This document shows, in pieces, positions 23,035 through 62,380 of a DNA stretch of 64,000 nucleotides. The position numbers were made by a program, and so were the translations under genes. Source of the stretch: an uncultured Bacteroidales bacterium (GTDB taxonomy: Bacteria > Bacteroidota > Bacteroidia > Bacteroidales > F082); the NCBI GenBank assembly GCA_900318265.1, contig ONKA01000010.1:1-64000 (forward strand). The letters run 5' to 3'. The notes below the pieces were generated by a model. The model saw only the letters and a list, made by a program, of their open reading frames with translations. It had not been told where the DNA came from and searched no databases. Every line of letters begins with the position of its first letter. Within the stretch, counting starts at the first letter, position 1.

Positions 23035-23042
23035 TATTTTTG
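23035..23042 (+). promoter_or_regulatory. Bacteroidota -7 element (zapB-like/zapA operon)
   Basis: TATTTTTG lies 27 nt before the ATG at 23070 and after the divergent nucleotidase gene. Confidence 0.7.
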
Positions 23043-23069
23043 TGGCACAATTCCAAGACCGTTTGTAAC

Positions 23070-23363: not shown

Positions 23364-23387
23364 CTCAGATACTTGATAGTCAGCGAG

Positions 23388-23672
23388 ATGGATGAGATTA
23401 CAATCAATATCACCCTGTTGGATAGGCCCTACCGCTTGTCGGTGGCCCGCGCTGACGAAGAGAAGGTCCGCAAGGCCGGCAACCTCATCAACGAGAGGAT
23501 CAAATACTACTCGAAGCATTACGCCTACAAGGATGTGCAGGATTTGCTTTCGATGACCGCCTTGCAATTTGCCACCTCGGTGGTGAAGATGGATGCTGAA
23601 CTGACCTATCGTAATCAGAATCTGGAACGCAAGTTGGAAGACTTGAACGACTTATTGAGCGAACAATCATAG
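23388..23672 (+). CDS. zapA: Cell division protein ZapA
   Basis: 94 residues from the ATG at 23388 (MDEITINI). ZapA binds FtsZ and bundles protofilaments at the division ring. The N-terminal beta-hairpin ITINITLLDRPYRLSVAR and the helical KAGNLINERIKYYSKHYAYK followed by a C-terminal coiled coil are the family pattern. It follows the coiled-coil gene by 24 nt, so the two are co-transcribed. Confidence 0.9.
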   Translation: MDEITINITLLDRPYRLSVARADEEKVRKAGNLINERIKYYSKHYAYKDVQDLLSMTALQFATSVVKMDAELTYRNQNLERKLEDLNDLLSEQS

Positions 23673-23699
23673 TTTCACGCCAACCCGTGGAATCGTTCT

Positions 23700-23905
23700 T
23701 TGAAGATCTGGAACTGCCTGTTCAGCGCATTTGGTAAACTCAACACTATCAACACATCAATCGGTCTACTCGCGCTTTGTAAAAACAGGCCTCATTCCCT
23801 TCGGGGAAGTACCTTCTGGTGCCGGTGGACGTTTGCGCAACGCGGTGGCCACAAGCGTATTATTTGGAGTTTACGCATCTCCAAGAGCAGGCAGTTTCTC
23901 TTTGT
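23700..23905 (+). ncRNA. ssrS: Probable 6S RNA
   Basis: A roughly 205-nt non-coding stretch between zapA and rny. Its ends pair: GGAACTGCCTG (23710-23720) with CAGGCAGTTTC (23889-23899), and further in GTAAACTC with GAGTTTAC (about 23734 and 23867), leaving an unpaired central region and an inner CATTCCCTTCGGGGAA hairpin. A long rod with a central bubble is the 6S shape that mimics an open promoter and sequesters RNA polymerase. Position after zapA is also the position of ssrS in many bacteria. Boundaries are estimated; a covariance-model search would be decisive. Confidence 0.68.
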
Positions 23906-23941
23906 TTCCTCCTCATTTTTCGAGTAAAAACAGAGTTTAAA

Positions 23942-25513
23942 ATGTTATTACTCACCATCACAAACACTACTTGGATTATTATTGCCGCAGCGGCTGCTTT
24001 GGTCGTGGGCCTTGCGGTGGGTTATTTCATCACGGCCACCCTGCTGAAAAAAGCGGTCACCAAAGAAGAACAGGCTTTGCTCGAAGAAGCCAAGGAAAAG
24101 GCCGAAGTCATTAAGAAAGAGCGCATTCTGCAAGCCAAGGAGAAGTTCCTTCAGATGAAGGACGAGCACGAAAAGGCTTGCGAAGAACGCAACCGCGCCG
24201 CCCAAAAGGTGGAGCAGAAGGCCAACCAACTGAAGCAGGACGCCAGCCAGAAGATGGACGAGGCACAACGCAAAGCCAAAGAGGTGCAAGCCGCCCAGCA
24301 GAAGCTGGAGAGCCAGATAGAGACCTTCAACAAGAAAAAGGCCGACCTCGATCGCATGCACAGCGAAGCCTCCAAGAAATTGGAGACCATCTCGGGCCTC
24401 TCGGCCAAGGAAGCCAAGGAACAGCTCGTCGAGTTGATCAAGGAAGAGGCCCAGGCCGACGCTATGGTCTATGTGAAGGAAGTCACCGAAGAGGCCAAGA
24501 TGAGCGCTGCCCAAACGGCCAAGAAGATCGTGCTGGAGACCATCCAACGCACGGCTTCGGAAACGGCTATCGAAAACACCGTCAGCGTGTTCAATATTGA
24601 AAATGACGAGATTAAGGGTCGTATCATCGGTCGTGAAGGTCGTAACATCCGCACCCTCGAGTCGCTCACAGGTGTCGAAATCATCATCGACGACAGCCCG
24701 GATGCCATCCTTATCTCTGGCTTTGACCCCATCCGCCGCGAAATCGCCCGCCTCTCCTTGCAGAAGCTCGTCGTCGACGGCCGTATCCACCCCGCCCGTA
24801 TCGAAGAGGTGGTGCATAAGGTGGAAAAGCAAGTGGATCAAGAGATTATGGAGACGGGTAAGCGTACTTCCATCGACCTCGGCATCCACAACCTCAACCC
24901 CGAGCTGATCAAGATGATTGGTCGTATGAAGTACCGTACCAGCTACGGCCAAAATCTGTTGCAGCACTCCATCGAAACCGCCAAGCTCTGCGCCACTATG
25001 GCTGCCGAACTCGGCCTCAACGTGAAGGCTGCCAAGCGTGCTGGTCTGTTGCACGACATCGGTAAAGTGGCTGAAAATGAGGAAGAACTGCCGCACGCCA
25101 TCTTGGGTATGAAGGTCGCCGAGCGCCTGAAAGAGAAACCCGACATCTGCAATGCCATCGGTGCCCACCACGAGGAGATCGAGATGGACAACCTGATTTC
25201 GCCTATCGTGCAGGTGTGCGACGCCATCTCTGGTGCCCGTCCGGGTGCCCGTCGCGAGGTGGTGGAAGCCTACATCCAGCGTCTCAATAAGTTGGAGGAG
25301 ATGGCCATGAGCTATCCGGGTGTGGTGAAGACCTACGCCATCCAGGCTGGCCGTGAGCTGCGCGTCATCGTGGGTGCCGACAAGGTGAGCGACCAAGACG
25401 CCGACCGCATCGCCTACGACCTCTCGAAGCAGATTCAGACTGAGATGACCTATCCGGGCCAGATCAAGATCACGGTCATCCGCGAAACGAGAGCCGTCCA
25501 GTACGCAAAGTAA
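23942..25513 (+). CDS. rny: Ribonuclease Y
   Basis: 523 residues from the ATG at 23942. N-terminal membrane helix ([19 protein letters not shown]), then a long charged coiled coil (residues about 40-210), a KH domain ([18 protein letters not shown], about 225-290) and an HD domain with LLHDIGKV (about 365) and AHHEEI. RNase Y is a membrane-bound endoribonuclease that starts mRNA decay. Length and domain order are canonical. The frame extension upstream to 23819 runs through the 6S RNA and is not used. Confidence 0.96.
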
Positions 25514-31439: not shown

Positions 31440-32627
31440 ATGATTTCGATTGCTGAAGCCATATCAGACCTCTTGTTTGTGCGCGATACCGTGGTGGTGC
31501 CTGGCTTGGGCGCTTTTGTGAAGAAGCCCGTTTCAGCCAAGGTGAATCCCGTGGCGAATTACTTCGCCATGCCTTCGAGCGAGATCGTCTTCGATGCCAA
31601 TTTACGAGAGGATAATGATTTGGTTGTCAATTATATGTCGGAGAAGAACGACCTCCCGAAGGAAGAAGCACAGAAGCTGCTATCCATGTTCGTTTCCGAC
31701 TGCTTCAACAGCCTCAAGCAAGGGAAGAAGGTAGTGCTGAACCAAATAGGCACCTTGTCGTACGATTGGGCCAATGATCTAGTTTTTGAGCAGGACAAGA
31801 CGGTCAACTACAACGCCGACACCTTCGGCTTGAGCGACTTCTCGCCCGAGCCGGTATTGCGCTCGAAGACGAAGGATGAAATCAAGACCGAAATCGAGCA
31901 GCAGCAGAAGGACAAGAACACACCGATGTCCGTCGACGAAAAGGCTGTGCATAAGCAAGATGAGGAAGACGATTCGAGACGTGGTCTGGGTTGGTTGTGG
32001 ATCCTGTTGGGCCTCTTGCTGGTGGCGGGTGTCGTCTACGGATTGTATTATTTCAAGGTCATCAAATTGCCGTGGCAGCAGGAGCAGAGAACCTTTGTGA
32101 CCGAGCCTATGACTTATACTTTGCCCTTCTATCAGAAGACTTGGGAGTGGAAAGAGCCTGTGGCTCAAGATACGGTGCAGGTGGTTGGCGATACGGTCAA
32201 GAAGCCAGCGGAACAGCAACCCGTGGAAAAGCCGATAGAACAACCTGCTGCACAATCGGTTGCGCAACCCGTTGAGCAGCCGAAAACTCAGCCTGTTGAG
32301 CAACCGAAAACACAACCTGTTGAGCAACCTAAGACACAGCCTATAGAGCAGCCGAAGCCACAAGCTGTTGAGCAGCCAAAAGTTCAGCCTTCGGCTACCT
32401 CTGCGGAGGGCAACATTCTCATTATTGGCGGTTGCTTCGGTGTGGAGGAGAATGCCATTAAGTTGACAAATACCCTGAAGGAAAAAGGTTATGCAGGAGC
32501 CTTGTATGAGATGCACTACAACATGTGGTATGTTTCGTTTGGCCGCTATAAAACCGATGAAGAGGCTGCTGCTGCCTTGCGTGAAATCAGGGCCAACACC
32601 GAATACAAGGCATGGATCTTCAAATGA
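31440..32627 (+). CDS. HU-domain/SPOR-domain membrane protein
   Basis: 395 residues. The N-terminal ~140 residues form HU-like (HU-CCDC81-type bacterial) domains: DTVVVPGLGAFVKKP and QGKKVVLNQIGTLSYD. A single helix (WLWILLGLLLVAGVVYGLYY, about 185) is followed by a Pro/Gln spacer of repeated VEQPKTQP units (about 275-310) and a C-terminal SPOR domain (IIGGCFGVEENAIKL ... YNMWYVSFGRYKTDEEA), which binds denuded peptidoglycan glycan strands. Topology suggests a cytoplasmic HU part linked to division-site peptidoglycan. Last gene of its operon. Confidence 0.88.
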   Translation: MISIAEAISDLLFVRDTVVVPGLGAFVKKPVSAKVNPVANYFAMPSSEIVFDANLREDNDLVVNYMSEKNDLPKEEAQKLLSMFVSDCFNSLKQGKKVVLNQIGTLSYDWANDLVFEQDKTVNYNADTFGLSDFSPEPVLRSKTKDEIKTEIEQQQKDKNTPMSVDEKAVHKQDEEDDSRRGLGWLWILLGLLLVAGVVYGLYYFKVIKLPWQQEQRTFVTEPMTYTLPFYQKTWEWKEPVAQDTVQVVGDTVKKPAEQQPVEKPIEQPAAQSVAQPVEQPKTQPVEQPKTQPVEQPKTQPIEQPKPQAVEQPKVQPSATSAEGNILIIGGCFGVEENAIKLTNTLKEKGYAGALYEMHYNMWYVSFGRYKTDEEAAAALREIRANTEYKAWIFK

Positions 32628-32800: not shown

Positions 32801-33484
32801 ATGTCAAAGAAGAACAAACTAGAGCGATTTGCCGAGAACAAGACCTTCCCCAACTTGTTCGAATACAGCTATGAGCGTATCATGAGCGAAGGCTTCCCCC
32901 TGCAAGGGAAGTGGCATGCCGACTTCTTCCACAACGACAACCCCATCGTGTTGGAGTTGGGTTGTGGCAAGGGGGAGTACACGGTTGGCTTGGCTCGTGC
33001 GCATCGTGACATTAATTATATAGGTGTCGACATCAAAGGCGCCCGCATCTGGCGCGGCCTGAAGCAGTCGAACGAGGAAGGCTTGAAGAATGTGGCGTTT
33101 CTCCGTGCCCGCATCGACCAAATAGAGCATTTCTTTGCCAAGGACGAAGTGGCTGAGATTTGGGTCACCTTCCCCGACCCGCATCCTGGTGAAGGCGAAC
33201 GTAACGCGCGCCATCGCCTCACCTCGCCAGAGTTCCTCAACCGGTATCGCAAGATTGTCCGTCCCGACGGCATCCTCAACCTCAAGACCGACAGTCCCAT
33301 CATGTATGAGTTCACCCTCCACGATGTGGTGGAGCCCCAGGGTCTGCCGTTGCTTTATGCCACAGACGACCTCTACGCGAACGATGACAACCTCGAAGTG
33401 AAGACCATCCGCACCTTCTACGAGCAGATGTGGCTCGACCAAGGTCTGACGATAAAGTATATCCGATTTAGAATCAACAAATAA
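32801..33484 (+). CDS. trmB: tRNA (guanine-N7-)-methyltransferase
   Basis: 227 residues. Methylates G46 of tRNAs. SAM-binding [15 protein letters not shown] (about residue 50), acidic loop [11 protein letters not shown], catalytic [19 protein letters not shown] (about 125-143) and the C-terminal [19 protein letters not shown] are the TrmB pattern. Start ATG at 32801 follows the repeat array; HerA-like ATPase gene 10 nt downstream. Confidence 0.95.
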
Positions 33485-33494
33485 AACTATTGCT

Positions 33495-35012
33495 ATGTAT
33501 ACAGAAGACAAACAACTCTACATCGCACATTGCGACAACGGCCCCATCTATATGATTGGCAAGATGGCCAACCGACACGGCATGATTGCGGGCGCCACGG
33601 GTACAGGTAAGACCGTCACCCTGCAGGTGCTTGCCGAAACCTTCTGCGAGGCAGGCGTGCCTTGCTTCATGGCCGATATGAAAGGCGACCTCTCAGGCAT
33701 CAGCCAGCCGGGACAGATGAGCAGCTTCATCGAGAAACGTTGCCCCGAATTTGGCATCGAGAACCCCGACTTCCATGGCTGCCCCACACGTTTCTTCGAC
33801 GTGTATGGCGAGCAGGGTCACCCCCTCCGTGCCACCATCTCGGAGATGGGTCCCCAACTCTTGGCCCGTCTGCTCGACCTCAACGAAACACAAACGGGCA
33901 TCCTCAACATCGTCTTCAAGATTGCCGATGATCAAGGGTTGATGCTTATCGACATGAAGGACTTGCGGATGATGCTCGACTATGTGGCAAAGAACGCCAA
34001 GGAGTTTACCACCACCTACGGAACGGTGTCGTCGGTGAGCGTGGGTGCCATCCAGCGCGCCCTGTTGGCTTTGGAGGCCGAAGGCGGCGAGATCTTCTTT
34101 GGCGAGCCTTCGTTCAATGCCTTGGACTTCCTCCAGACCGAAGGCGGTCGCGGTGTGATGAATGTGTTGGCTGCCGACAAGCTGATGCTCAATCCCAAGC
34201 TCTATTCCACCTTCCTGCTGTGGCTCCTGAGCGAACTCTACGAACAATTGCCCGAAGTCGGTGACCTCGAATTGCCCAAGCTGGTATTCTTCTTCGACGA
34301 AGCCCACATGCTGTTTAAGGACACCTCCAAGGCCTTGATTGACAAGATTGAACAGGTCATCCGCTTGGTGCGTTCCAAGGGCGTGGGCGTCTATTTCGTC
34401 ACGCAAAGCCCGAGCGACATTCCGGAGGTCATTGCGGGACAGTTGGGTAACCGTGTCTTGCATGGATTGAGAGCTTATACGCCCAAAGACCAGAAGACCG
34501 TCAAGGCGGCGGCACAAACCTTCCGCGCCAATCCCAACTTCAACACCGAGGCGGCTATCCTCGAACTCGGCACAGGCGAGGCCTTGGTCTCCTTCCTTGA
34601 CGCGAAAGGCGCGCCTTGCATCGTCGAACGTGCCAAGATCCTCTTCCCGTTGAGCCAAATTGGTGCTATTACCGAGGGACAGCGCACTGCTTTGATCCGC
34701 AACTCGCGCCTCTATGGCATCTATGATAAGAGCTTCGACCGCGAGAGCGCCTACGAACTCCTTCTCGAACAGCAGAAGCAGGAAGAGAAACGTCGCCAGC
34801 GTGAAGAAGAAGAGGAAGAGAAGCGCCTGGCCAAGGAAGCCAAGGAAAGAGAACGCTCAAGAAGCACCAGCTCGCGTAGCACAAGCACCAAGAAGAAGTC
34901 GACCACGAGGAAAGCCGTCGAGAAGACCATCAACACGACGGCGACGACCTTCGGACGCCAACTCGGAAAGTCGATTTTCCGAGGGCTTTTGGGCGGCATA
35001 TTCAAGAAATAA
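33495..35012 (+). CDS. HerA-like P-loop ATPase (DUF853 family)
   Basis: 505 residues. Walker [13 protein letters not shown] (about residue 35), [15 protein letters not shown], Walker [14 protein letters not shown] (about 270) and the sensor region [20 protein letters not shown] match the DUF853/HerA-FtsK group. The tail (residues about 425-490) is a highly charged KR/E helix plus Ser/Thr/Lys-rich linker, ending in [16 protein letters not shown]. Physiological role is not known; relatives are predicted DNA translocases. Probably co-transcribed with trmB. Confidence 0.88.
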
Positions 35013-44612: not shown

Positions 44613-45221
44613 ATGTTAGTCATTGGAATCGCAGGCGGCTCGGGCTCAGGAAAGACCACCGTCGTCAAAGAGCTGGTCAGCCAGCTGCCAGAGAACTCAG
44701 TATCAGTCATTTCGCAAGATGCTTATTACTATGACAATGGCGACAAGACGCCTGAAGAGAAGAAGCAAATCAACTTCGACCACCCCGATGCCATCGAGTG
44801 GGACTTGCTTATCGACCACCTCGACCGACTGAAAAAGGGTGAGACCATTCCCATGCCTATCTACACCTACGTCACTTGTGCCCGTTCGCAGGAGGTGATT
44901 TATGTGCATCCCACCGAGGTCATCATCGTGGAAGGCATCATGGTGCTGACGCAAGAGGAACTGCGCAATCGCATGGACATCAAGGTGTTTGTGGATACCG
45001 ACAGCGACGAGCGCCTGATGCGCATCATCCGCCGCGACATCGCCGAGCGCGGCCGCACCTGGGAGGATGTGCTGCGCCACTACCAGACTTTCGTGAAACC
45101 CATGCACCAGCAGTTCATCGAGCCCACCAAGCGCACGGCCGACATCATCCTGCCCCGCGGCTCCAGCCCCGTGGTGGTCGACATCCTCGCCTCTAGGATT
45201 CGTATGCATTTGGGTAAGTGA
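44613..45221 (+). CDS. udk: Uridine kinase
   Basis: 202 residues. Phosphorylates uridine and cytidine. P-loop GIAGGSGSGKTTVVKE (about residues 5-20), SQDAYYYDNG, NFDHPDAIEWDLL and VEGIMVL are the Udk pattern; the lid RRDIAERGRTWEDVL is intact. The lipoprotein array follows 35 nt later. Confidence 0.95.
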   Translation: MLVIGIAGGSGSGKTTVVKELVSQLPENSVSVISQDAYYYDNGDKTPEEKKQINFDHPDAIEWDLLIDHLDRLKKGETIPMPIYTYVTCARSQEVIYVHPTEVIIVEGIMVLTQEELRNRMDIKVFVDTDSDERLMRIIRRDIAERGRTWEDVLRHYQTFVKPMHQQFIEPTKRTADIILPRGSSPVVVDILASRIRMHLGK

Positions 45222-45256: not shown

Positions 45257-46204
45257 ATGAAAAGACAACTCTATTTTCTGCTAATGGCGTTGCTGATACC
45301 CTTTTTCGGCTGCGGCAATGCGACCTCGACCAGTGCTAGCAACAATTCAACGCAACCTGACGTGCAATTTAATATGGCCATTATGGATAAAGGCCATGTG
45401 ATCCTCTATGACCTGACCAACAGAATTGCAGCCCCAATCGAGGCAGAAACGGACTCTGTGTTTAATATGGTTTTTGGATCAGATCGTGTCTATTATTCTG
45501 TGAAACAAGGTAATAAAACCTTCTTGAAATATGTGGTTCTTAACGATCCGGACCTCAAACCGCAGTTGGCTGCTGATTGGGAGGTACCCTACGATTGCTG
45601 TGTGGGCACGGCTTATTACTGTTTGGAAGCACCCGCGTTGCAGTATGTCCCGGAGCAAAACATCCTCGCCATGAACTATATGATGGAGCCCAACTACGGC
45701 TATTCCGAATACCGCATCTTTGACCCCGCCACCGGAAAGTCGGTCAATGCCATGGATTGGGAAGGAGACCTGACCTTCCTCAATTACGACATGTTCGATC
45801 CGTTTGAAGGCCAGTTTGCCTGTGCGGAGGACAACGGCGACTTGTACTATCGTCAAGGCGACGACATGATCTTCCTTAGCGACCAACTTGAATTTGAGGT
45901 TGACAGTGACACCCCGGACGAGCTTCCCTTTTTCGAGGTGCTCTCCATGGATCCGACTGGAAAATACGTTCTGTTCAAGGCAGCAACCACTTTTGGCGAG
46001 GATGATGATTATCATGGTCCACAATGTTATGCCTCGTTGGATGGCAAAGTGCAGAAAGTCTTGGGCACATACGATGAAAAGTATCCCGGCCAATGGTTGC
46101 CCGATGGTTCGCTCGTCTATGGCTCGGAAGGTATCCACCTGCTTGCCCCCAGTGGGAAAGACATAGTACTGTGTCCTGGCCGCTCCTTTGTGCTTCGCCC
46201 ATAA
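45257..46204 (+). CDS. Array lipoprotein 1 (unrecognised beta-propeller-like domain)
   Basis: 315 residues, first of six tandem paralogues. Lipobox FFGC, so lipid-anchored. The N-terminal block of the family is present but divergent (NMAIMDKGHVILYDLTNRI, then ETDSVFNMVF and YYSVKQGNKTFLK); the C-terminal block reads MDPTGKYVLF, GPQCYASLDGKVQKVLG, WLPDGSLVYGSEGIHLLAPS. Repeats of S-P-x-G, L-D-G-K and W-L-x-D-G-x-L-x-Y recall TolB/WD-type propeller blades. Most divergent copy; no enzymatic motif. Confidence 0.8.
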   Translation: MKRQLYFLLMALLIPFFGCGNATSTSASNNSTQPDVQFNMAIMDKGHVILYDLTNRIAAPIEAETDSVFNMVFGSDRVYYSVKQGNKTFLKYVVLNDPDLKPQLAADWEVPYDCCVGTAYYCLEAPALQYVPEQNILAMNYMMEPNYGYSEYRIFDPATGKSVNAMDWEGDLTFLNYDMFDPFEGQFACAEDNGDLYYRQGDDMIFLSDQLEFEVDSDTPDELPFFEVLSMDPTGKYVLFKAATTFGEDDDYHGPQCYASLDGKVQKVLGTYDEKYPGQWLPDGSLVYGSEGIHLLAPSGKDIVLCPGRSFVLRP

Positions 46205-46238
46205 AGGCATTGTTTTTAATGGAACATAATATCACAAT

Positions 46239-47141
46239 ATGAAAAGACTTTATTGCATTCTCATCACCATAATGGCAGTAGGGATCATGGGTTGTGACCA
46301 CAACCCCAAGCCTGCCCTCAATCCCATCGATAAGCCATTGGATCCGGTCAAGGAGAAACAAGCCCTTTTGGGTGGGTGCGACATGGCCATTTTTGATGAA
46401 GGAAAAGTGACTTTCTACAATTCATCCACCAATACCATCATTCCTTTCGTGGCCGAAGACGATTACGTGGTTACTGGAGTCTTTGTTGATAATTCCTTTT
46501 ATTACACCGTCGCTATCGGTGACGAATTGTATCTGAAACGAATCTATGCTGCAGACTATCTGAACTATCCCGAATTGCTCACCGATTGGGATCTGAAGCT
46601 GAGTGATTGTGTCAACGATGAATGTGAGAAGGTCGCTTCGATGGTGGGTTATCCAGGTTTCCAGGAGATAGGAATACTCCATGGGGTGGATCCCGAATAT
46701 TGTAATTTCAAGGATTACAGATTTTATGACATTTATGCCCAAACCCAATGGGATGGTTGGGGCGATGACGGCATGTTGGGAAAGCATCTCGAAAATGAGG
46801 ACTTGTTTAACGAGATTGCCCTGGGTTTGGAAGAGAAGGGAATCTCTGCAGTATTGTTAGAGATGAATCCATCCCATCAATATATTGCTTTCGGTGATAT
46901 TAAAGACTGGATGGATCAAGACATAGTCAATATCCCAGGCCATGGCCCGCTTTGCTTCTCTAGTCTTGATGGCAAGATGCAGGTGGCTTTGGAAGAAATC
47001 GACGTTGCCAATATGTACAACTGGGGCTGGCTGACCGATGACACGTTTGTCTTTTCCGATCGTGAAGGCATCAAGACGGTGTCTCTTGACGGCACCATAA
47101 AGGAGCTTTCGCCAGGCCGTTGGTTCGTGACGGGCTATTGA
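46239..47141 (+). CDS. Array lipoprotein 2
   Basis: 300 residues. Lipobox IMGC. Strong family blocks: GCDMAIFDEGKVTFYNSS, AEDDYVVTGVFV, YYTVAIGDELYLKRI, TDWDLKLSDC followed by VNDEC; C-terminal NPSHQYIAF, HGPLCFSSLDGKMQVALE, GWLTDDTFVFSDREGIKTVS and SPGRWFVTGY. Most like copies 5, 6 and the second half of copy 4 (type B). Gap to copy 1 is 34 nt. Function unknown. Confidence 0.8.
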   Translation: MKRLYCILITIMAVGIMGCDHNPKPALNPIDKPLDPVKEKQALLGGCDMAIFDEGKVTFYNSSTNTIIPFVAEDDYVVTGVFVDNSFYYTVAIGDELYLKRIYAADYLNYPELLTDWDLKLSDCVNDECEKVASMVGYPGFQEIGILHGVDPEYCNFKDYRFYDIYAQTQWDGWGDDGMLGKHLENEDLFNEIALGLEEKGISAVLLEMNPSHQYIAFGDIKDWMDQDIVNIPGHGPLCFSSLDGKMQVALEEIDVANMYNWGWLTDDTFVFSDREGIKTVSLDGTIKELSPGRWFVTGY

Positions 47142-47168
47142 AAATAATAACAACAAATACCTACTACT

Positions 47169-48299
47169 ATGAAAAGACACATTTATTCTCTCCTAATGCT
47201 ACTGACGATGGGTTTGGCCAGTTGCAACATTACCATCAAACCCGACCCGAACAGTGTTACGACGAATGTCGATAGTGTGGAAGTTACCGTCAATATGAAA
47301 GTGTATGGAGATTCTATTGTCTCCCAACCTGTCGACCTCACGCAATGCGACATGGCGATGCTCGACATGGGCAGACTCTTCTTCTACAATACGACTACAG
47401 CGGTCATGACGCCTTTTGAGGCCGAAAAGGACAGCGTGGTGAATTGCGTCTTCACCGGCGACAACAAAGTGTATTATTGCGTGGCCACCGGACCGAAGAT
47501 CCTGCTACGCTGCGTCGACCTGGAACAAGCCGACCCACAGCCGCAGGAGCTCGCCGACTGGGGCGTTCCCTACGAAAAATGCGTGACCGAGACCTATGGT
47601 ACGGTATCACCATTGGAGTATTACCGTGGAAAAAACACCTTGGGCCTGAATCACAACTTTAGTTGGGATGGCTATTGGTTCACCGACAAAAAGCTCTATA
47701 ACATTGAAACGGGCGAAATCACAGACTGGACCTGGAAATGGGAAGAAGAATACCAGCGTATGCAAAACAGGAATGACGAAGAACAGACCGAGGAGAACTA
47801 CCATTATATCAGCACGGCTAACGAGCTACAAGAGTATCTTACTCGGAGTGAAGGTCAGTATTATTTGACAGACGGCAACGGCGACGACATTGCGTGCCTT
47901 ACCGACCAGATTGACTTCAGCAAATATGTTAGTGATCCCGAATATGCCAGCGACGTGGACTTCGAATATGTCTCTTCGTCACCCGACAACTTGAAGGTGC
48001 TCTATATGGCTATCTTGGAATGGAGCGATTTCGCTCATGGCATCCTGGCTGTCTCGAGCACCGACGGCAAGCTTCAGATACCGCTCGAAGACACCGACTG
48101 CACAGGCTTCACCGCTGAATGGCTCGACGACGGATCGCTGGTCTATGTCGGCGAGGAACCGCTCTCACCCGATGATCCCGATTACGATGCCAACTGGCAT
48201 TATCGCGCCCATTGCATCAAGCGCGTCTATCCTGACGGACACATTGACATTATCGCCCATTGCGGCGAATTTGTGAAAAAACAATCCTTGCTTCATTAA
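47169..48299 (+). CDS. Array lipoprotein 3
   Basis: 376 residues. Lipobox LASC. Family N-block: QCDMAMLDMGRLFFYNTTTA, EAEKDSVVNCVF, VYYCVATGPKILLRCVDL. The C-block is of a second type (A): EWLDDGSLVYVGEEPLSPDD then PDYDANWHYRAHCIKRVYPD, which is shared only with the first half of copy 4. A charged insert (about residues 190-215, NRNDEEQTEENYHY) separates the blocks. Gap to copy 2 is 27 nt. Confidence 0.8.
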   Translation: MKRHIYSLLMLLTMGLASCNITIKPDPNSVTTNVDSVEVTVNMKVYGDSIVSQPVDLTQCDMAMLDMGRLFFYNTTTAVMTPFEAEKDSVVNCVFTGDNKVYYCVATGPKILLRCVDLEQADPQPQELADWGVPYEKCVTETYGTVSPLEYYRGKNTLGLNHNFSWDGYWFTDKKLYNIETGEITDWTWKWEEEYQRMQNRNDEEQTEENYHYISTANELQEYLTRSEGQYYLTDGNGDDIACLTDQIDFSKYVSDPEYASDVDFEYVSSSPDNLKVLYMAILEWSDFAHGILAVSSTDGKLQIPLEDTDCTGFTAEWLDDGSLVYVGEEPLSPDDPDYDANWHYRAHCIKRVYPDGHIDIIAHCGEFVKKQSLLH

Positions 48300-48310
48300 A
48301 AACTTACCAC

Positions 48311-50110
48311 ATGAAAAAAACACTATTCGTTCTCATTGCAGCATTGGCACTGGGTGTCATGAGCTGCGACCGCACCATCCCTCGTGTCGATGTCGTGATC
48401 ATCAATCACGGGCAGATGCAATTCTACAACCATGCGACACAGAAACTGACGCCGTATGAAGCCGAAACCGACAGCGTGGTCAACGTCTTATTCGACAAGA
48501 GCGACCATCTGTTCTATACGGCAGCCCATCAGCAAGCCTTGACGCTGAAGTCCCTCGATCTTACGGAATCCCATCCGCAACCCAAGGTATGCGCCAACTG
48601 GAAGCTGACGTTGGATCAGATTACGGATTGGGTGTACGGAACGGGTGCCCAGGGTATGTTCTTGGATGAATCTTTGGAAAACCTCTATTTGATGAGGGGT
48701 AGCTTCGAAGATGATGATCCTATCTATGCAGAGACCTTCAATATCGCTTCTGGCACCAAAAAGGAATTGTCGTTCGAGGAATATGAACCTATCAGCGGCT
48801 TAAGCATCGCACTAGACCATTTCTATAGCGAACAAGAGAAGTTCTATTATGCGACTCCTGAAGGCAAAGTGTGCCTCAACGATCAAATCGATATCCGTAG
48901 CGATAACCATGACAAGTTTGCATGGGGAGACGTGGAGTACCTTCCGGTAAAGATGAGTCAGGATGGAAAGAAGATTGTGTTTGAATATACCTATGAGGTA
49001 GAAGGAGGTTATGGACGATACTGTGTTGCCGACAGCGACGGACAGCATCAAACGTTGCTGAAAGATTCGAATATGTGGACCATATCTCCCGAGTGGCTCG
49101 CCGATGGCTCCATGATCTATGTCGGAGGAGAACCCAGACCGGAAAGCGACCCGGATTACGATGCTGAATGGAACACGACCCGTTATTGCATCAAGATCAT
49201 CGATCCTCAAGGCGCGACTTCTTTGGTGGCTTCCGATGCCGAAGTTTATTATGTCAATCCGGTCGAGCCATTGAAGCCAAGAGAGAAACAAAACTCCATG
49301 TATGGCTGCGATATGGCCATCGTCGACAACGGAAAGTTGACGTTATACAACTCCACTGACAACACCTTCGTCCCCATGGTGATCGAAAAGGATCGCGTGG
49401 TCAGCGCCACCTTCGTCGAGGAAGACTGCTTGTATTACACCGTTGCGATTGGCGATAGACTCTATCTGAAAACGTTATATACGGCATCCTTCATGGGACC
49501 CTACATGGTCACCGACTGGGACCTGAAACTGGGCGATTGCTACTCGGAAAACTGCGGAATGGTTTCACCGATGCATCATGTTATCGCAAAATCTGCCGAC
49601 GACCCCTATGGTGTCCTGTTGGTCGGAATAGATTGTGGCTTGGATGAGGATTTGTGCGTGTTCAGTGGCGTCAAATACTACAACAACGAAAGCGGTGTGA
49701 TAACCGACTACTGGCCCGCAGAATACAACACCGACGATGAGTTTGCGGAGCGGGAAAAACTTATGAATGAATTGAAGCTGACGAACCTGACAAGGTTCGA
49801 CCTCGACATTCCTAGTGAGGTTGAGGAAAACAAACTGGAAGTGTATTCCATCTCGCCGTCCCACGATTGCATCGCCTACGCCTATTATACGGATTTGGGC
49901 CCCAAAGGAGGAAGTGGTCCGCTTTGCTTTGCCACGGTCGACGGCAAGGTGAAGATGGCCTTGGAAGGCACCGACGTCCAGAACATCTGTTATGGATGGC
50001 TGAACGACGGTCGACTGGCCTATTCCGACAAAGAAGGCATCAAGGCTGTTGCCGCTGATGGCACCATCACTAAGATTTCGGATGGCAAATTATTCGTAAC
50101 CGTACATTGA
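48311..50110 (+). CDS. Array lipoprotein 4, fusion of two paralogous domains
   Basis: 599 residues, about twice the length of its neighbours; start at 48311 (MKKTLFVLIAALALG, lipobox VMSC). Residues about 25-325 match copy 3 (type A: HGQMQFYNHATQKLTPYEAE ... EWLADGSMIYVGGEPRPESD, PDYDAEWN). Residues about 335-599 match type B (YGCDMAIVDNGKLTLYNSTD ... GPLCFATVDGKVKMALEGTD, DKEGIKAVAADGTI). The joint (NPVEPLKPREKQNSMYGCDM) resembles the mature N-terminus of copy 2 (NPIDKPLDPVKEKQALLGGC) without its signal peptide, showing that a type A gene ran into a type B gene. Confidence 0.82.
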   Translation: MKKTLFVLIAALALGVMSCDRTIPRVDVVIINHGQMQFYNHATQKLTPYEAETDSVVNVLFDKSDHLFYTAAHQQALTLKSLDLTESHPQPKVCANWKLTLDQITDWVYGTGAQGMFLDESLENLYLMRGSFEDDDPIYAETFNIASGTKKELSFEEYEPISGLSIALDHFYSEQEKFYYATPEGKVCLNDQIDIRSDNHDKFAWGDVEYLPVKMSQDGKKIVFEYTYEVEGGYGRYCVADSDGQHQTLLKDSNMWTISPEWLADGSMIYVGGEPRPESDPDYDAEWNTTRYCIKIIDPQGATSLVASDAEVYYVNPVEPLKPREKQNSMYGCDMAIVDNGKLTLYNSTDNTFVPMVIEKDRVVSATFVEEDCLYYTVAIGDRLYLKTLYTASFMGPYMVTDWDLKLGDCYSENCGMVSPMHHVIAKSADDPYGVLLVGIDCGLDEDLCVFSGVKYYNNESGVITDYWPAEYNTDDEFAEREKLMNELKLTNLTRFDLDIPSEVEENKLEVYSISPSHDCIAYAYYTDLGPKGGSGPLCFATVDGKVKMALEGTDVQNICYGWLNDGRLAYSDKEGIKAVAADGTITKISDGKLFVTVH

Positions 50111-50137
50111 AAATCAAACTTTAAATAATAATTAAAA

Positions 50138-51142
50138 ATGAAAAAAACATTTATTCTATTCATGATCGCCGCGGCATTCGTAATGATGGGCTGCGACAAC
50201 ACTCAAAAACCCAACAATGCAAACCTGACACAAGCTGAAGAGGTCGTCACCTTCAAGGGCTGCGACATGGCCGTCTTCGACAACGGAAAGGTGACGTTCT
50301 ACAGTTCATCCACTGACAAGTTTGTCCCGTTCGCCGACGAAAAGGATAACGTGATCAGCGGTGTTTTCAGCGATGAAAACGAGTTTTATTACACTGTCTC
50401 GGTCAATGACGAGCTCTATCTGAAAAAGGTTGATCTCTCTGCTGACAAACCTGCTCCGGTCCAGATTGTCGATTGGGGACTGAAGCTGAACGACTGTGTC
50501 GTCGACAGTTGCGAAAAGTGCGCATCAATGGTCTATTATTATATTGATGTCCCATTTGTCGGTATTGAATATAACATGGGCGAGATGTGCAAGGGTTTCA
50601 TAGATAATAAATACTATATGATTGAAGGACAAACCCTGAGTGACGGCTGGCCGGAAGGCGTGGATGAGGGTATGGTTGCGTATCAGAATTTCATTGATAA
50701 CGTGCATTTCATTGCTTTGCCCATCGAAGAAGGTGGAGAGGAGAAGCGTTACTATTACTGCGATGTAGATTTTGCCGTGTATCCTGAGGAAGAGTTGCCT
50801 AATCATCTGGTCTGCATCAGCGACAAAATCAATTTCCATGAAGGTAAATACGAGGGATATGAAGGCCAACCCGAGTTCACGTATCTTGCCCTCAGCCCCG
50901 AATCCGATTGCGTGGCATACGCTGCCATTATGGAATGGGGTCGCGGCGGCCGTGGTCCGCTGTGCTTCGCCACGCTCGACGGCAAGGTGCAGAAGCTGTT
51001 GGCCTATGATGCTTGCTACGGATGGCTGAACAATAACAAGTTGGCTTTCTCCGATGACGAAGGCATCAAGACGATTGCTCCCGATGGTACCATCACGAAA
51101 CTCTGCCCTGGCAGTAGGTTCGTGACCGTCAATGGGGAATGA
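50138..51142 (+). CDS. Array lipoprotein 5
   Basis: 334 residues, lipobox MMGC. Type B: KGCDMAVFDNGKVTFYSSST, EKDNVISGVF, YYTVSVNDELYLKKVDLS, VDWGLKLNDC with VDSCEKC; C-block SPESDCVAYAAIMEWG, GRGPLCFATLDGKVQKLLA, CYGWLNNNKLAFSDDEG. Gap to copy 4 is 27 nt. Close to copy 6, suggesting a recent duplication. Confidence 0.82.
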   Translation: MKKTFILFMIAAAFVMMGCDNTQKPNNANLTQAEEVVTFKGCDMAVFDNGKVTFYSSSTDKFVPFADEKDNVISGVFSDENEFYYTVSVNDELYLKKVDLSADKPAPVQIVDWGLKLNDCVVDSCEKCASMVYYYIDVPFVGIEYNMGEMCKGFIDNKYYMIEGQTLSDGWPEGVDEGMVAYQNFIDNVHFIALPIEEGGEEKRYYYCDVDFAVYPEEELPNHLVCISDKINFHEGKYEGYEGQPEFTYLALSPESDCVAYAAIMEWGRGGRGPLCFATLDGKVQKLLAYDACYGWLNNNKLAFSDDEGIKTIAPDGTITKLCPGSRFVTVNGE

Positions 51143-51161
51143 ACCAATAAAAGAGGTTGAC

Positions 51162-52151
51162 ATGAAAAAGACTCTATTGCTTCTCTTTGCCGTCCTGGCG
51201 TTTGGACTGTTGGGTTGCGACCGCAATCCGCTCCCTACCCAGACCAAAACGTCAGATGCTGTTGCTCCTCTTAAGGGCTGCGACATGGCTATCTTTGACG
51301 ACGGAAAGGTGACCTTCTTCAACTCACGCACGAACTCGCTTATTCCTTTCGCTGACGAGCAGGATCGTGTAATTAAAGGCGTTTTCCTCAACGAAAACGA
51401 GTTTTATTACACCGTCGTGATTGATGATGAGCTCTATCTGAAAAAGGTCGACCTCTTGGCTTCTCATCCCGCTCCTGTCATGCTCACGGACTGGGACCTG
51501 AAACTCAGCGATTGCTTCGATGACAATTGCGGTTATGCCCCTATGTTGAGGTATTCCAACGTCCCGATGATTGGAATTCAGCATAACTTGGAAAAGATGT
51601 ACTGCGAGTTTATGGATGACAGATACTATCTGCCAGACGATAATACGAAGAGCGAAGGATGGCCCGATGATGTCAACATGGGCGACGGAGCTGATGAGCA
51701 GGAGATTCAGCTTTTGAACGACCAAGACCTGTTCAAACAAGTAGATGTGGAGGTGGAAGGTGCCGACGAGGACAAGAGTTACTATTACTATGTTCCAGAT
51801 GAGTCGAGTGATGAGCGAATCTGCATCAGCGACAAGATTGACCTCGATAGCTTCAAAGGTGAGTATTCTTATGAGCCTCAGTTTGAGCTTCTTGGATTGA
51901 ACCCTCAGCGTGACTGCGTTGTCTACGGTGCGGCTGTTGACTTTGGTCATGTCGGCTACGGACCGCTTTGCTTCGCCACGCTCGACGGCAAGGTTCAGAA
52001 GGCTTTGTGCTACGATTATAATGGTGCTTGTTTTGGCTGGCTGGCCAACGGCAAACTGGCTTATTTCGGTAATGACGGCATCTATGTGGTTTCGCCCGAT
52101 GGGACGGAGCAAAAGATTGCGTCACCCCGTGAGTTTGTGACCAGCTATTAG
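51162..52151 (+). CDS. Array lipoprotein 6
   Basis: 329 residues from 51162 (MKKTLLLLFAV, lipobox LLGC); the frame extension at 51132 precedes the signal peptide. Type B: KGCDMAIFDDGKVTFFNSRT, EQDRVIKGVF, YYTVVIDDELYLKKVDLL, TDWDLKLSDC with FDDNC; C-block NPQRDCVVYGAAVDFG, YGPLCFATLDGKVQKALCY, GWLANGKLAYFGNDG. Last gene of the array, followed by a strong terminator. Confidence 0.82.
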   Translation: MKKTLLLLFAVLAFGLLGCDRNPLPTQTKTSDAVAPLKGCDMAIFDDGKVTFFNSRTNSLIPFADEQDRVIKGVFLNENEFYYTVVIDDELYLKKVDLLASHPAPVMLTDWDLKLSDCFDDNCGYAPMLRYSNVPMIGIQHNLEKMYCEFMDDRYYLPDDNTKSEGWPDDVNMGDGADEQEIQLLNDQDLFKQVDVEVEGADEDKSYYYYVPDESSDERICISDKIDLDSFKGEYSYEPQFELLGLNPQRDCVVYGAAVDFGHVGYGPLCFATLDGKVQKALCYDYNGACFGWLANGKLAYFGNDGIYVVSPDGTEQKIASPREFVTSY

Positions 52152-52177
52152 CACTGAATCAACTGGCTTAAAAACAA

Positions 52178-52207
52178 AAAAACCTCCGCGAAAACGGAGG
52201 TTTTTTG
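52178..52207 (+). terminator. Strong intrinsic terminator of the lipoprotein array
   Basis: AAAAACCTCCG-CGAAAA-CGGAGGTTTTTT, 27 nt after the stop of copy 6. Confidence 0.92.
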
Positions 52208-52278
52208 TTGCCCAACCAGGATTCGAACCTAGACTAACTGATCCAGAGTCAGTTGTGCTGCCATTACACCATTGGGCA
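52208..52278 (-). tRNA. tRNA-Gln (anticodon CTG)
   Basis: 71 nt on the minus strand. Acceptor TGCCCAA/TTGGGCA, D arm with GTGTAATGGCAGCAC, anticodon stem ACTGA/TCAGT enclosing CTCTGGA (anticodon CTG), T arm CTAGG-TTCGAAT-CCTGG, discriminator A, no encoded CCA. Confidence 0.94.
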
Positions 52279-52391: not shown

Positions 52392-53180
52392 TCAGTATTT
52401 GTTGAAACGCGATCCCCAGTTGTACGATAGCATGAAGGTGACAAAGAGCCAACGGTCGCGCTCCGAGTCGATGATGGAGACGCCCATGGGGAAACACTCT
52501 ACCTTGACGTCGACGTTGATGGCCTGCACCGAGGTGCGCGACTTGGCGATGTCGAAGCTGAGTCCCAACGAGGCATGGGCACCAGGCGAGAGCTTGCTCT
52601 CGCCGAGGCCTTTGGTGAAGGCCGAGCGCCCGAGGATGTCGATGCCTTCCTCGAAGGTCTGCTCTTGCACCGACTCCACAAAGCCGCCCGAGCCGTTGGG
52701 GATGTAGGTGACCACATAGTAGTAATAGGGCTTGAGCCAGGCCAACGATGCGCCAAATTCGTAGGTCCAGCGCGTCTCTATGCCGCCCCAATAGGGCTTG
52801 CCGAAGATGCGTCGCTCCTCGCCATAGCCGAAGCGGGCCACGTAGACGTAGTTCAGCTTGCCGTAGACGAAGGGTCTCATGTTGATGGTGGAGATGTTCA
52901 AGGTCTTGATTTCCTTGAGCGAGCGCAGCGACACCACCTCGGCCTCCCAGTTGCGTGTCAGGTTGATGCTCTTGATGCGCCCGATCTTGAATCCCGCGCC
53001 GAAGCCCCGCGAGTGGATGGCCACGTTGAAGGTGTTTTGGTGGTTGTAGACCAGCTTCTCTTCCAAGGGCTTGTTGTCATCGCTCTGGATGTCGATGTTT
53101 TGCGCAGGCAACAAAAAAGCGCACGCTCCGAAAAGCGTGAGCATGAGGATGCGCAATAGGCGTTGTTTGAGGGCAGTCAT
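52392..53180 (-). CDS. Probable outer membrane beta-barrel protein
   Basis: 262 residues from 53180 (MTALKQRLLRILMLTLFGAC, signal peptide ending near PAQ). The mature protein alternates polar and aromatic residues in strands (FVYGKLNYVYVARFGYGEER, YYYYVVTYIPNGSG) with glycine turns, and ends FVTFMLSYNWGSRFNKY. No family name is evident; a conserved Bacteroidota envelope protein is the likely reading. The small lipoprotein gene lies 23 nt upstream on the same strand. Confidence 0.75.
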   Translation of the reverse strand: MTALKQRLLRILMLTLFGACAFLLPAQNIDIQSDDNKPLEEKLVYNHQNTFNVAIHSRGFGAGFKIGRIKSINLTRNWEAEVVSLRSLKEIKTLNISTINMRPFVYGKLNYVYVARFGYGEERRIFGKPYWGGIETRWTYEFGASLAWLKPYYYYVVTYIPNGSGGFVESVQEQTFEEGIDILGRSAFTKGLGESKLSPGAHASLGLSFDIAKSRTSVQAINVDVKVECFPMGVSIIDSERDRWLFVTFMLSYNWGSRFNKY

Positions 53181-53203
53181 GGCATTGCCTCCCAACACCT
53201 AAA

Positions 53204-54361: not shown

Positions 54362-54943
54362 ATGAAACAAATCGTATTTGCCACCAATAATAAGAACAAA
54401 CTGCGCGAGATGCGCGAAATCATGGAGGGCCTCTATGAGGTCCTGAGTCTTGAAGACATCGGCTGCCACGACGACATCGTCGAAGACGCCGACACCATCG
54501 AAGGCAACGCCAAGATCAAGGCGGACTTCGTCACCAACAAGTACCACGTGGACTGCTTCTCCGACGACTCCGGTCTCGAGGTGGAGGCCTTGGGCGGCGC
54601 CCCAGGCGTCTATTCGGCACGCTATGCCGGTGAGCATTGCACCTACCAGGACAATGTCGACAAGATGTTGGCGGCCATGAAGGGACAGACCAACCGCAAG
54701 GCGGCCTTCCGCACTTGCATCGCGCTGAATCTGGATGGGAAATCCTATTACTTCGAAGGCCGTTGCGACGGTCGCATCACCGAGGAGCAACGCGGCACCG
54801 ATGGCTTCGGCTACGACCCCATCTTCCAGCCCGACGGCTACGAGCAGACCTTCGCTGAACTGGGCCACGAAATGAAAAACGCCATCAGCCACCGTGGCAA
54901 GGCCACGCGTAAGCTGATCGCGTTTTTGAAGGACTTGGGTTGA
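54362..54943 (+). CDS. rdgB: XTP/dITP diphosphatase (RdgB/HAM1)
   Basis: 193 residues from 54362. Hydrolyses non-canonical purine triphosphates. N-terminal [32 protein letters not shown] (metal site), [13 protein letters not shown] and SHRGKAT are the full family pattern. The start at 54308 would run through the palindrome and is not used. Confidence 0.95.
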
Positions 54944-54959
54944 GTCGTAAACACAAAAG

Positions 54960-55134
54960 AAGGCATCCGGCATTCATAGTCAACCGGTCGGTAGTGCGCC
55001 GTGCGGCCTAAGCCGTGCATTCGACTGACAACGTGCTGAGCCTGCGCCGTGCTGTTCATCGTGAACGGGTGCTGCCGGCTCCGGGCAACGATCAGTGGTG
55101 GGGGTTCGGTTCGCCCTACAAATGCGGATGCCTT
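54960..55134. repeat. 175-bp stretch closed by inverted ends, between convergent genes
   Basis: AAGGCATCCGGCATT at the left pairs with AATGCGGATGCCTT at the right. The interior is GC-rich with many GCCGTGC-type words and no ORF with coding character. Could be a mobile foldback element or a structured RNA; nothing decides. Confidence 0.5.
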
Positions 55135-55139
55135 GTAGT

Positions 55140-55595
55140 TCAGACCAGCTCGGTCTGGAAGTTGAGCGCCTGTATCTCCATGTCGAGTTGGCGCAGCTGT
55201 GCGGAGCATTCGTCCACCTTCTTGCCGATGGCTTTCACGTCGACCACGGTCACCGTCTTGATCTCCGAGCGCGAGTAGCGGTCCTGTCCCGCCGAGGCGG
55301 TGTCGAAGATGCTGCGCAGGTTGCTGACGCGCATGGTCAGCACGTCCTTGCGGGCCATGAGTTGGGTGAGGGTGACGCCCTGGGCGTTGGTGGTCTGCAT
55401 GTTGGTGGCGTTGATGCGCCAGATGAGGTCTTCGAGCTGCGTGAGGCAGGTGTCGAGTTCCTTCATCAGCTCCGTGGGTTCTTCCGAAGGCGCGTCGCCT
55501 TCTTGCACCTTCACGTTGTTCTGGATGCGCTGTCCCAGCTGTTGGATGCGCTTCTGCAGGTCTTTCCTGATGCTTAATGCTTCTGCGAGTTTCAT
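55140..55595 (-). CDS. DIP1984 family protein
   Basis: 151 residues from 55595 (MKLAEALSIRKDLQKRIQQL). All-helical; the N-terminal MKLAEALSIRKDLQ, RINATNMQTTNAQG (conserved NxTN) and SKIRTVTVVDVK-like SEIKTVTVVDVKAI segments match the DIP1984 (septicolysin-like) family. Role unknown. A TATCTTTG motif at 55636-55643 on this strand fixes the start; the longer frame to 55706 is not used. Confidence 0.85.
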   Translation of the reverse strand: MKLAEALSIRKDLQKRIQQLGQRIQNNVKVQEGDAPSEEPTELMKELDTCLTQLEDLIWRINATNMQTTNAQGVTLTQLMARKDVLTMRVSNLRSIFDTASAGQDRYSRSEIKTVTVVDVKAIGKKVDECSAQLRQLDMEIQALNFQTELV

Positions 55596-55635
55596 AGGGG
55601 ATGGATTTAACTCCGTTGATTCTTCGAATTTGGCG

Positions 55636-55643
55636 CAAAGATA
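55636..55643 (-). promoter_or_regulatory. Bacteroidota -7 element (DIP1984)
   Basis: The minus strand reads TATCTTTG, 40 nt upstream of the start. Confidence 0.65.
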
Positions 55644-60862: not shown

Positions 60863-62380
60863 ATGCCGAAAGAGAAAACAACAAAGTCCAAGAAGGTCGA
60901 AGAGATAGGCACCAGCCGCGAACTATACAACTTCTTGTTCGAGGCTTGTAATATCATCCGAGGACCCGTGTCGCAGGATGCCTTCAAGGAATATATCACC
61001 CCACTTTTGTATTTCAAACGCATCAGCGATGTGTATGACGAAGAGACGCAGGCCGCATTGGACCTGTCGGACGGTGATGAGGAATTCGCTGCATTGCCAG
61101 AGCAGCATCGCTTTGTGATTCCCGAAGGCTGCCACTGGGAGGATGTGCGTCAGCGCTCTGTGGATATTGGTAGCGCCATCATAGGTGCCATGCGTCAGAT
61201 TGAGTTGGCTAACCCCATGACGCTTTATGGCGTGCTCAGCGTGTTCTCGACCGCCAACTGGAGCAACAAGAATGTGTTTAGCGACGAGAAACTGCGCGAT
61301 TTGATTGAGCACATGAGCAAACGCCGCCTCGGCAACAACGATTATAATGCCGACCTGATGGGCGATGCCTACGAGATGCTGCTGAAGAAGTTCGCCGACC
61401 TCTCAAAAGCCAAGGCGGGCGAGTTCTATACGCCCCGTCCTGTGGTGAGGCTCTTGGTGCGCATACTCGACCCCAAGCCGGGTGAGACCGTCTACGACCC
61501 TGCGTGCGGATCGGGAGGCATGCTTATCGAGGCTGTCCATCACATGAAGAATGACGCCCAATGCTGCGGCTCCATCTTCGGACAGGAAAAGAACGTGACG
61601 AATGCAGCCGTGGCCAAGATGAACCTCTTCTTGCATGGCGCCAACGACTTCAATATCATGTGCGGTGATACGTTGCGCGACCCAAAAATCCTGCAAAACG
61701 AGCACATCGCCCACTTTGACTGTGTGATTGCCAATCCGCCGTTCTCGTTGAAAAACTGGGGTGCCGAGGCTTGGAAGACCGATCGCTATGGGCGCAACCT
61801 TTGGGGCACACCGCCTGAGACCATTGGTGACTTTGCCTGGCTTCAGCACATGGTGAGCAGCATGCGAAGCCTCACAGGCCGTTTGGCGGTGGTGTTGCCG
61901 CAAGGCGTGCTGTTTCGTGGCAATGAGGAAGCCAAAATCAGGGAAGAACTGGTGAAGCACGACTATGTGGAAGCTATCATCACCTTGGGCGACAAACTCT
62001 TTTATGGCACAGGGCTCTCGCCCTGCCTGCTGATCATCCGCGACCGTAAATCCGAAGCACACCAAGGCAAGGTGCTGATGATTGACGGCTCGAAGATATT
62101 GACCCCTCAACGCGCTCAAAACATCTTGAGCGATGACGATATTGACGAGTTGTATCGCCTCTATACTGCCTATCACGAAGAAGAAGACAAATCCATCGTG
62201 GTAAGCTTGGCCCAGATAGCCGAGAAGGGATACGACCTCTCACCCAACAAATATGTGAAATACCACAAGGAAGCGGTGAAACCTTATGCAGAAGTGTTGG
62301 CTGAGTTTAAGGCCGCTTACCAGCAGATGGTGGAGGCCGAAGCCAAGTTCCGTGAAATCCTTAACCGTGAAGCCGTATGA
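60863..62380 (+). CDS. hsdM: Type I restriction-modification DNA methylase (HsdM), first copy
   Basis: 505 residues. N-terminal HsdM_N helical domain (YNFLFEACNIIRGPVSQDAF), then the N6-adenine methylase domain: GEFYTPRPVVRLLV, SAM motif DPACGSGGMLIEA (about residue 211) and catalytic motif IANPPFSLKNWG (about 290), then LPQGVLFRGNEEAKIREELV. Methylates adenine in a bipartite target set by HsdS. Full length. Its stop overlaps the start of a second methylase by 4 bp (ATGA), an unusual tandem. Confidence 0.94.
   Translation: MPKEKTTKSKKVEEIGTSRELYNFLFEACNIIRGPVSQDAFKEYITPLLYFKRISDVYDEETQAALDLSDGDEEFAALPEQHRFVIPEGCHWEDVRQRSVDIGSAIIGAMRQIELANPMTLYGVLSVFSTANWSNKNVFSDEKLRDLIEHMSKRRLGNNDYNADLMGDAYEMLLKKFADLSKAKAGEFYTPRPVVRLLVRILDPKPGETVYDPACGSGGMLIEAVHHMKNDAQCCGSIFGQEKNVTNAAVAKMNLFLHGANDFNIMCGDTLRDPKILQNEHIAHFDCVIANPPFSLKNWGAEAWKTDRYGRNLWGTPPETIGDFAWLQHMVSSMRSLTGRLAVVLPQGVLFRGNEEAKIREELVKHDYVEAIITLGDKLFYGTGLSPCLLIIRDRKSEAHQGKVLMIDGSKILTPQRAQNILSDDDIDELYRLYTAYHEEEDKSIVVSLAQIAEKGYDLSPNKYVKYHKEAVKPYAEVLAEFKAAYQQMVEAEAKFREILNREAV

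Follow-up and report, generated by a model that had tools for sequence, protein, structure and literature searches.

A candidate accessory exchange locus for lipid-anchored, predicted beta-propeller proteins in uncultured Bacteroidales

The window analysed here comprises the first 64,000 nucleotides of contig ONKA01000010.1 (assembly GCA_900318265.1), from an uncultured Bacteroidales bacterium. On its plus strand, at 45257–52151, lie six adjacent lipoprotein open reading frames (ORFs), genes 1 to 6, which together carry seven copies of one domain. Having compared this array with its counterparts in related genomes (designated by handles such as G057), we think it fairly probable that the stretch from udk to a tRNA-Gln gene, which contains the array, is an accessory exchange locus for lipid-anchored beta-propellers of Bacteroidales. 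The proposal draws on the uneven divergence of the array between species, the traces of recombination between its copies and the variable occupancy of the site.

Divergence, recombination and occupancy at the udk site

When the window is compared with G057, synonymous divergence (dS) is 0.010 for gene 1, 0.006 for the shared domain of gene 2, 0.052 for gene 4, 0.071 for gene 5 and 0.237 for gene 6, as against 0.27–2.4 in 21 of the 22 syntenic flanking ORFs; five of the six array genes lie below every flank value kept. The ORF dropped from this list, 32819–33511, has replacement divergence (dN) above dS (0.114 and 0.05) and is not coding-like, and udk and F4 are absent from it for want of a reciprocal pair. 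Nucleotide identity gives the same picture: 500-bp segments are at least 98% identical to G057 in 6 of the 14 cases within the array and in 0 of 63 outside it (outside median 90.8%, maximum 96.8%), with the segments of genes 1 and 2 at 99.4–100%. Gene 3, with a dS of 0.58–0.60, drops to 61–90% identity (250-bp segments) between similar blocks. Since neither gene 3 nor lone copies elsewhere have low dS, low dS is not an inherent property of array genes.

Compared with G054, genes 4 and 5 have dS values of 0.16–0.17, below all flanks kept (udk 0.53, rsmI 0.86), and gene 3 is at 1.18; the ORFs dropped here are 23004–23567 (0.088/0.11 for dN/dS), 31440–32627 (dS not computable) and 60863–62380 (dN 0.887, not orthologous). 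In two comparisons, gene 4 with G070 and gene 2 as a whole with G057, the domains aligned are not counterparts. A dispersed paralogue elsewhere in the genome has a dS of 0.09 against G070, under that of its neighbours (0.18–0.96), and of 0.77 against G057, like its neighbours.

The copies also change by deletion and recombination. Gene 2 (P0002, 46239..47141, plus strand) matches gene 2 of G057 up to base 78 and then continues as the second domain of that gene, with 885 bp (295 codons) absent: one domain is left on the two-domain gene's own signal peptide. The sequence TGCC, a four-base microhomology at the junction (46313..46316, plus strand; gene positions 75–78), is common to both ends of the 885-bp piece, and the difference is exact and in frame. 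Because the gene has two domains in both G057 and G070, we infer a loss in the window's line. Gene 2 of G070 is, by its sequence, a crossover between paralogues: about 250 alignment columns are 92–100% like window gene 4, the following ones are 86–96% like G057 gene 2, and the final 13-column block is 100% identical to the latter. The initial annotation saw a set of paralogues expanding in tandem. While copy number does vary, most of the paralogues are old and common to species at two sites; the recent change appears rather as domain deletion, chimera formation and swapping between species.

In the pairs analysed, the ratio dN/dS is 0.13–0.52 in the array as compared to 0.02–0.19 in the flanks, a range that leaves out gene 2 against G057, where there are zero replacement changes. 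A few 30-codon segments exceed 1; as these rest on few changes, positive selection is not shown.

Occupancy of the site differs widely between relatives. The gene udk (44613..45221, plus strand; uridine kinase, named after the initial annotation) is its conserved left border and was matched in 79 of 99 genomes of the genus (E ≤ 1e-60). After it we count eight domains in G057 (one shortened), seven in the window, seven plus a remnant in G070, six in G095, four in G054, two in G037 and one each in G083, G052, G074 and G053; the site holds one broken copy in G021 and, in G061, pieces at contig ends only. Shortened or broken copies occur in G057, G070, G021, G032, G072 and G025. A further 29 genomes lack the array and have a udk at least 94% identical; none of the 20 fetched has a family match near udk. 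In 12 of these 20 the site is empty, with udk followed after 201–576 bp by F3 (in the window 52392..53198, minus strand, without a Pfam match), and tRNA-Gln was found in 11 of the 12; F3 was not found in the stretch fetched from the other eight. The comparison of copy number between relatives called for by the initial annotation thus gives 0 to 8 domains at one site across related species, and a single-copy, invariant array, which was looked for, did not appear.

The udk site also takes up a second accessory gene, F11 (L056:2540-3316, 258 aa, without a Pfam match), located between the array and the tRNA-Gln side in G070, G057, G083, G052 and G074 and missing in the window. In G070 the end of the array is separated from a family remnant of 97 aa (L056:3416-3709) by a gene for a 2167-aa protein (L056:4149-10652) with a GLUG motif and a sub-cutoff type IX secretion system sorting tail.

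The array, its domain and its predicted fold

The six genes are separated by 11–34 nt, and the array starts 35 nt past the end of udk. Besides gene 2, it consists of gene 1 (P0001, 45257..46204), with one propeller domain of lineage A; gene 3 (P0003, 47169..48299), of lineage S, whose form is the one present alone at the udk site in G083, G052, G074 and G053; gene 4 (P0004, 48311..50110), with two domains, d1 (~48311–49258) and d2 (~49280–50107); and the one-domain genes 5 (P0005, 50138..51142) and 6 (P0006, 51162..52151), both of the d2 lineage. All are on the plus strand. For genes 4 and 6 the ORF lister gave starts at 48260 and 51132, and an ATG with a signal peptide is found at 48311 and 51162. 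The lineages are clades in a tree of 82 domains: d1; d2, including genes 2, 5 and 6; S, with gene 3; and A, with gene 1, a clade of the window, G057, G032 and G015 only. Long branches make some of the joins in this tree unsure.

At the far end, a hairpin of 13 pairs with T-runs (52177..52206) lies between the array and tRNA-Gln (anticodon CTG, 52208..52278, minus strand), the right border of the site. The scan reported the hairpin for the minus strand, and its plus-strand T-run was read by eye; it is probably a two-way terminator. An Rfam scan returned the tRNA as its sole match, and the Bacteroidetes-type TTTG/TAnnTTTG promoter has 0 matches within 44–53 kb and 4 in the whole window. The flanks are of a housekeeping kind: seven of the ten window neighbours scanned match Pfam families (thymidine kinase, uracil DNA glycosylase, Ham1 and sugar transferase among them) and three do not. 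The layout given by the initial annotation – six adjacent genes on the plus strand, directly after udk and with what is probably a terminator at the array's end – stands.

So does its reading of one repeated, unrecognised domain. The seven copies, of ~270–370 residues, align with 20 invariant columns and are 23–49% identical to a reference copy in the alignments made. A profile of the seven recovers each at E 3.1e-81 or better, gene 2 in two pieces of which the second scores 5.7e-36; although the profile was built from those very copies, their likeness, judged by such scores, is far beyond chance. The sequence blocks quoted as common to the copies are real as a consensus but not exact in every copy. 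CDMA is present in five of the seven (gene 1 has NMA, domain 1 of gene 4 has VDVV), the C-terminal block GPLCFATLDGKVQ is letter-perfect in genes 5 and 6 only, and a YYY...ICISDKI stretch is missing from gene 2 and from domain 2 of gene 4. In Pfam and NCBIfam the scores of all six proteins stay well short of any curated cut-off, none matches a PADLOC model, and a sequence search of the PDB with P0005 gave no result; a match to a well described family did not appear. A full-text literature search, with subscription journals largely outside it, listed no paper on the window's family. One distant relative (L131) barely passes the PD40 cut-off (21.4 against 20.9 bits). Two further candidates were rejected: weak profile matches of ~700 aa, one of which (751 aa, G000 C6) proved to be an S9 peptidase with PD40 repeats, as members of the family, and DUF3298, below cut-off, as the family of the C41 paralogue.

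Gene 3 retains all 25 of the columns in which the S clade agrees with distant families, as compared to 16–17 in the other six window domains; the columns were picked on the S clade with gene 3 as reference and are thus biased toward it. The pattern would suit an old function that gene 3 has retained while the remaining domains diverged. A conserved region of gene 3 includes C138, G144, S165, D167 and H290.

The propeller blades suspected by the initial annotation are borne out by structure prediction. AlphaFold models of gene 5 (mean pLDDT 84.1, pTM 0.81) and gene 3 (mean pLDDT 83.1, pTM 0.78) consist mostly of beta strands with some helix and have the form of beta-propellers. The leading Foldseek matches are propellers as well: LRP/LDLR YWTD domains, TolB, Kelch and six-bladed designs, at E ~1e-6 to 1e-5, with low query TM-scores of 0.18–0.42 among the matches listed (the best 50 per model). 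A profile of 54 domains run against the PDB finds 11 TolB chains (E 0.004–0.012) with one blade covered only. Together the models support the beta-propeller fold class, and the strands suggest about six blades.

Full-length TolB has an N-terminal domain and is the periplasmic partner of Pal. The likeness to TolB and its PD40 (WD40-like) repeats extends to one blade by profile (best E 0.004) and to the Foldseek matches at E ~1e-6; unlike TolB, the window family is lipid-anchored, and the query TM-scores for the TolB matches listed are 0.35–0.41. We therefore rejected TolB membership: one blade alone matches by sequence, and the NCBIfam TolB model reaches E 0.13 with P0004 only.

As for location in the cell, each of the six proteins has a signal peptide and a lipobox cysteine (6/6, read by eye), as the initial annotation had noted, and judged by these N-termini they qualify as bacterial lipoproteins. 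The claim that they are exposed at the surface fared worse. The export signal of Bacteroidota lipoproteins is, according to Lauber et al. (PMC5080379), an acidic run at about +2 to +6. The window proteins have at most one acidic residue each at these positions; among 28 recognised N-termini of the family, none has three or more and two have two. (The 28 are 29 less the S9 peptidase; several true members escaped the lipobox pattern, including four of the six window proteins, which were read by eye.) Eight other lipoproteins in the same comparison also lack the signal, which makes them a weak control, and SusD could not serve as a surface control because the window's genome (89% complete) has no SusD_RagB match and a single sub-cutoff match to SusD-like_3. 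The missing signal argues against surface exposure, by a rule that may not be the genus's own.

Range of the family and its second site

Within the searches made, only scattered Bacteroidales have the family. Matches (E ≤ 1e-8) come from 25 of the 173 genomes in the window's taxonomic family, and all 25 belong to the window's genus; in the order it is 11 of 393 genomes including the window's own, spread over 6 of 206 genera, and in the class 1 of 395, the window's own. At most 12 candidates were scored per genome in the family search and at most five in the order and class searches, which makes absence weak evidence. Of the 99 genomes searched in the genus, 52 match at E ≤ 1e-3, a count that overstates the family because the weak matches include non-members such as the S9 peptidase. 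A scan of named genomes found 16 loci, all from Bacteroidales or Bacteroidia and all uncultured or metagenome-assembled; titles name a ruminant host (yak, buffalo, goat or sheep) for six of the 16, and the RUG/RUI names on seven others presumably refer to rumen genome sets.

The 25 carriers divide between two sites: 12 have the genes after udk (G061 being judged from contig ends) and 13 in a second neighbourhood, recognised by common neighbour genes, with tRNA-Lys in 8 of the 13 stretches scanned. G064 has the genes at a second place too, on another contig. Eight genomes, seven of them fetched, have the further dispersed paralogue. As several lineages are present at both sites, the basic paralogue set is probably older than the split. 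At the second site, a gene with a TPM domain (L065:7817-9370) overlaps the array end by four bases in five loci (L061, L063, L064, L065 and L066), which suggests one transcript.

In the stretches fetched from other families, a distant relative is mostly a gene on its own. An exception is G365, of another taxonomic family, with tandem runs of four and three (L152:7062-11721 and L153:5199-8157). In a 481-aa relative from G444 (L149:785-2230) the family domain lies mostly in the second half, and the first part is without a Pfam match.

The proposed exchange, its rivals and possible roles of the propellers

In the mechanism that we propose for the udk site, homologous recombination via the conserved flanks and between copies would swap and reshuffle the array genes, and selection would favour variety among them. 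Several observations weigh against this. Most seriously, the relatives include metagenome-assembled genomes, and chimeric contigs could fake part of the mosaic. Gene 6, at 0.237 against G057, lies only narrowly below the flank minimum of 0.27. In G054 the excess is in dS only: by identity the array segments (68.8–93.2%) do not stand out from those outside, with their median of 87.0% and maximum of 95.8%. Against G070 it is modest, with genes 3 and 6 at dS 0.08–0.09, gene 5 at 0.16 and the lowest flank kept at 0.14 (dropped: 23004–23567, identical, and 54838–55638, 0.057/0.05). Overall dN/dS in the array is below 1. Signs of a mobile element were not seen: the window holds no repeat of the tRNA 3' end with up to three mismatches allowed, and neither P0003 against plasmids nor P0005 against phages gave a match. 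Lone genes and the genes of the second site mostly have dS values similar to those of their flanks, as expected of vertical descent; exchange is therefore argued for the expanded udk-site arrays only.

Apart from the array, two 500-bp segments at 23001–24000 in the window are 98.6–100% identical to G070 (outside-array median 92.3%); the minus-strand ORF there looks non-coding.

One rival is ordinary vertical descent, in which the gene of a binding lipoprotein was duplicated in tandem and the copies were then lost differentially, with the low dS of some genes a product of chance or assembly. Old lineages common to species, and the mostly vertical lone genes and second site, are what it would predict, and it sits badly with genes 1 and 2 at 99.4–100% identity beside flanks of median 90.8%, with gene 3 at 61–90% between similar blocks and with the crossover chimera in G070; we regard it as unlikely. 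As to what the propellers do, a tentative suggestion is that each binds a variable, threatening partner, for example a competitor's toxin, and that the array would be a tandem immunity or decoy repertoire against toxins or phages, remodelled as genes are swapped and copies recombine. The genetics described for TilA/Lpl (PMC10730906) and esaG arrays (PMC9484751), in which copy number varies and paralogues are shuffled, would fit such a repertoire. However, Pfam scans of ten window neighbours and ten proteins from other loci, which do not cover every neighbour, revealed no toxin or integrase family, hence no cognate toxin and no recombinase of the rAID type, and PADLOC is silent on the six proteins; the absence of a toxin also tells against our proposal as a whole. 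In its most specific form the idea is a long shot: a between-species defence repertoire of lipid-anchored propellers, maintained as tandem cassettes at one constant place beside a tRNA gene, passed around rumen Bacteroidales and reshuffled domain by domain, in which every propeller would block, or act as a decoy for, one toxin or phage.

BtuG-type proteins are B12-binding propeller lipoproteins of Bacteroides, and a BtuG-like capture of nutrients or glycans by surface or periplasmic propellers, with variety tracking the ligands, is about as likely as the immunity or decoy role; taken by itself we hold it to be doubtful. The propeller fold, the gut habitat where titles name one and a Foldseek match to the Bacteroides B12-binding lipoprotein BT2095 (8okv) all point this way, although that match is weak (rank 50, TM 0.29). 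Against it, neither a TonB transporter nor a SusD family turned up among the twenty neighbour proteins scanned with Pfam, of which one, from the second site, is a Porin_O_P; the window's genome gave no SusD_RagB match, and the export signal was not seen; btu genes are absent among the scanned neighbours, in scans not aimed at them. Host-directed antigenic variation at the cell surface, raised by the initial annotation, would suit variable lipoproteins in bacteria of the ruminant gut (as locus titles have it). It seems very improbable to us: the 28 N-termini show no export signal, albeit with a weak control, and the variation observed is between species.

The best-known tandem lipoprotein arrays that vary and shuffle are those of S. 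aureus. There, copy number varies and recombination shuffles the genes (PMC10730906, PMC7360770), and one member, TilA, proved to confer immunity to a toxin (PMC10730906); esaG arrays are described as strings of non-identical immunity genes with variable copy number and shuffling between paralogues (PMC9484751). Variable copy number and recombination between paralogues, the traits of such immunity arrays, are both found in the window array, which shares with the S. aureus DUF576 proteins (Lpl, Csa1, TilA) tandem divergent lipoprotein paralogues. Unlike them, it has no DUF576 or other Pfam match, is predicted to encode propellers, belongs to a Gram-negative order, has no linked toxin seen near it and holds near-identical genes common to different species. 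The rAID orphan immunity arrays (PMC12247911) are likewise arrays of divergent paralogues in gut Bacteroidales, with SUKH-domain proteins and a recombinase; the window array differs in its lipoprotein propellers and in the lack of a recombinase family among the twenty neighbours scanned. The comparison with S. aureus and esaG is one of likeness in behaviour, not of membership.

What the exchange proposal offers is a setting for a biological question. Variation in copy number combined with swapping of genes is a pattern known elsewhere for arms-race genes, and the udk site is a concrete place at which to ask what force makes gut bacteria exchange proteins of their envelope. That question is made directly testable by the existence of an empty site, of a form with a lone gene and of the one- and two-domain pair.

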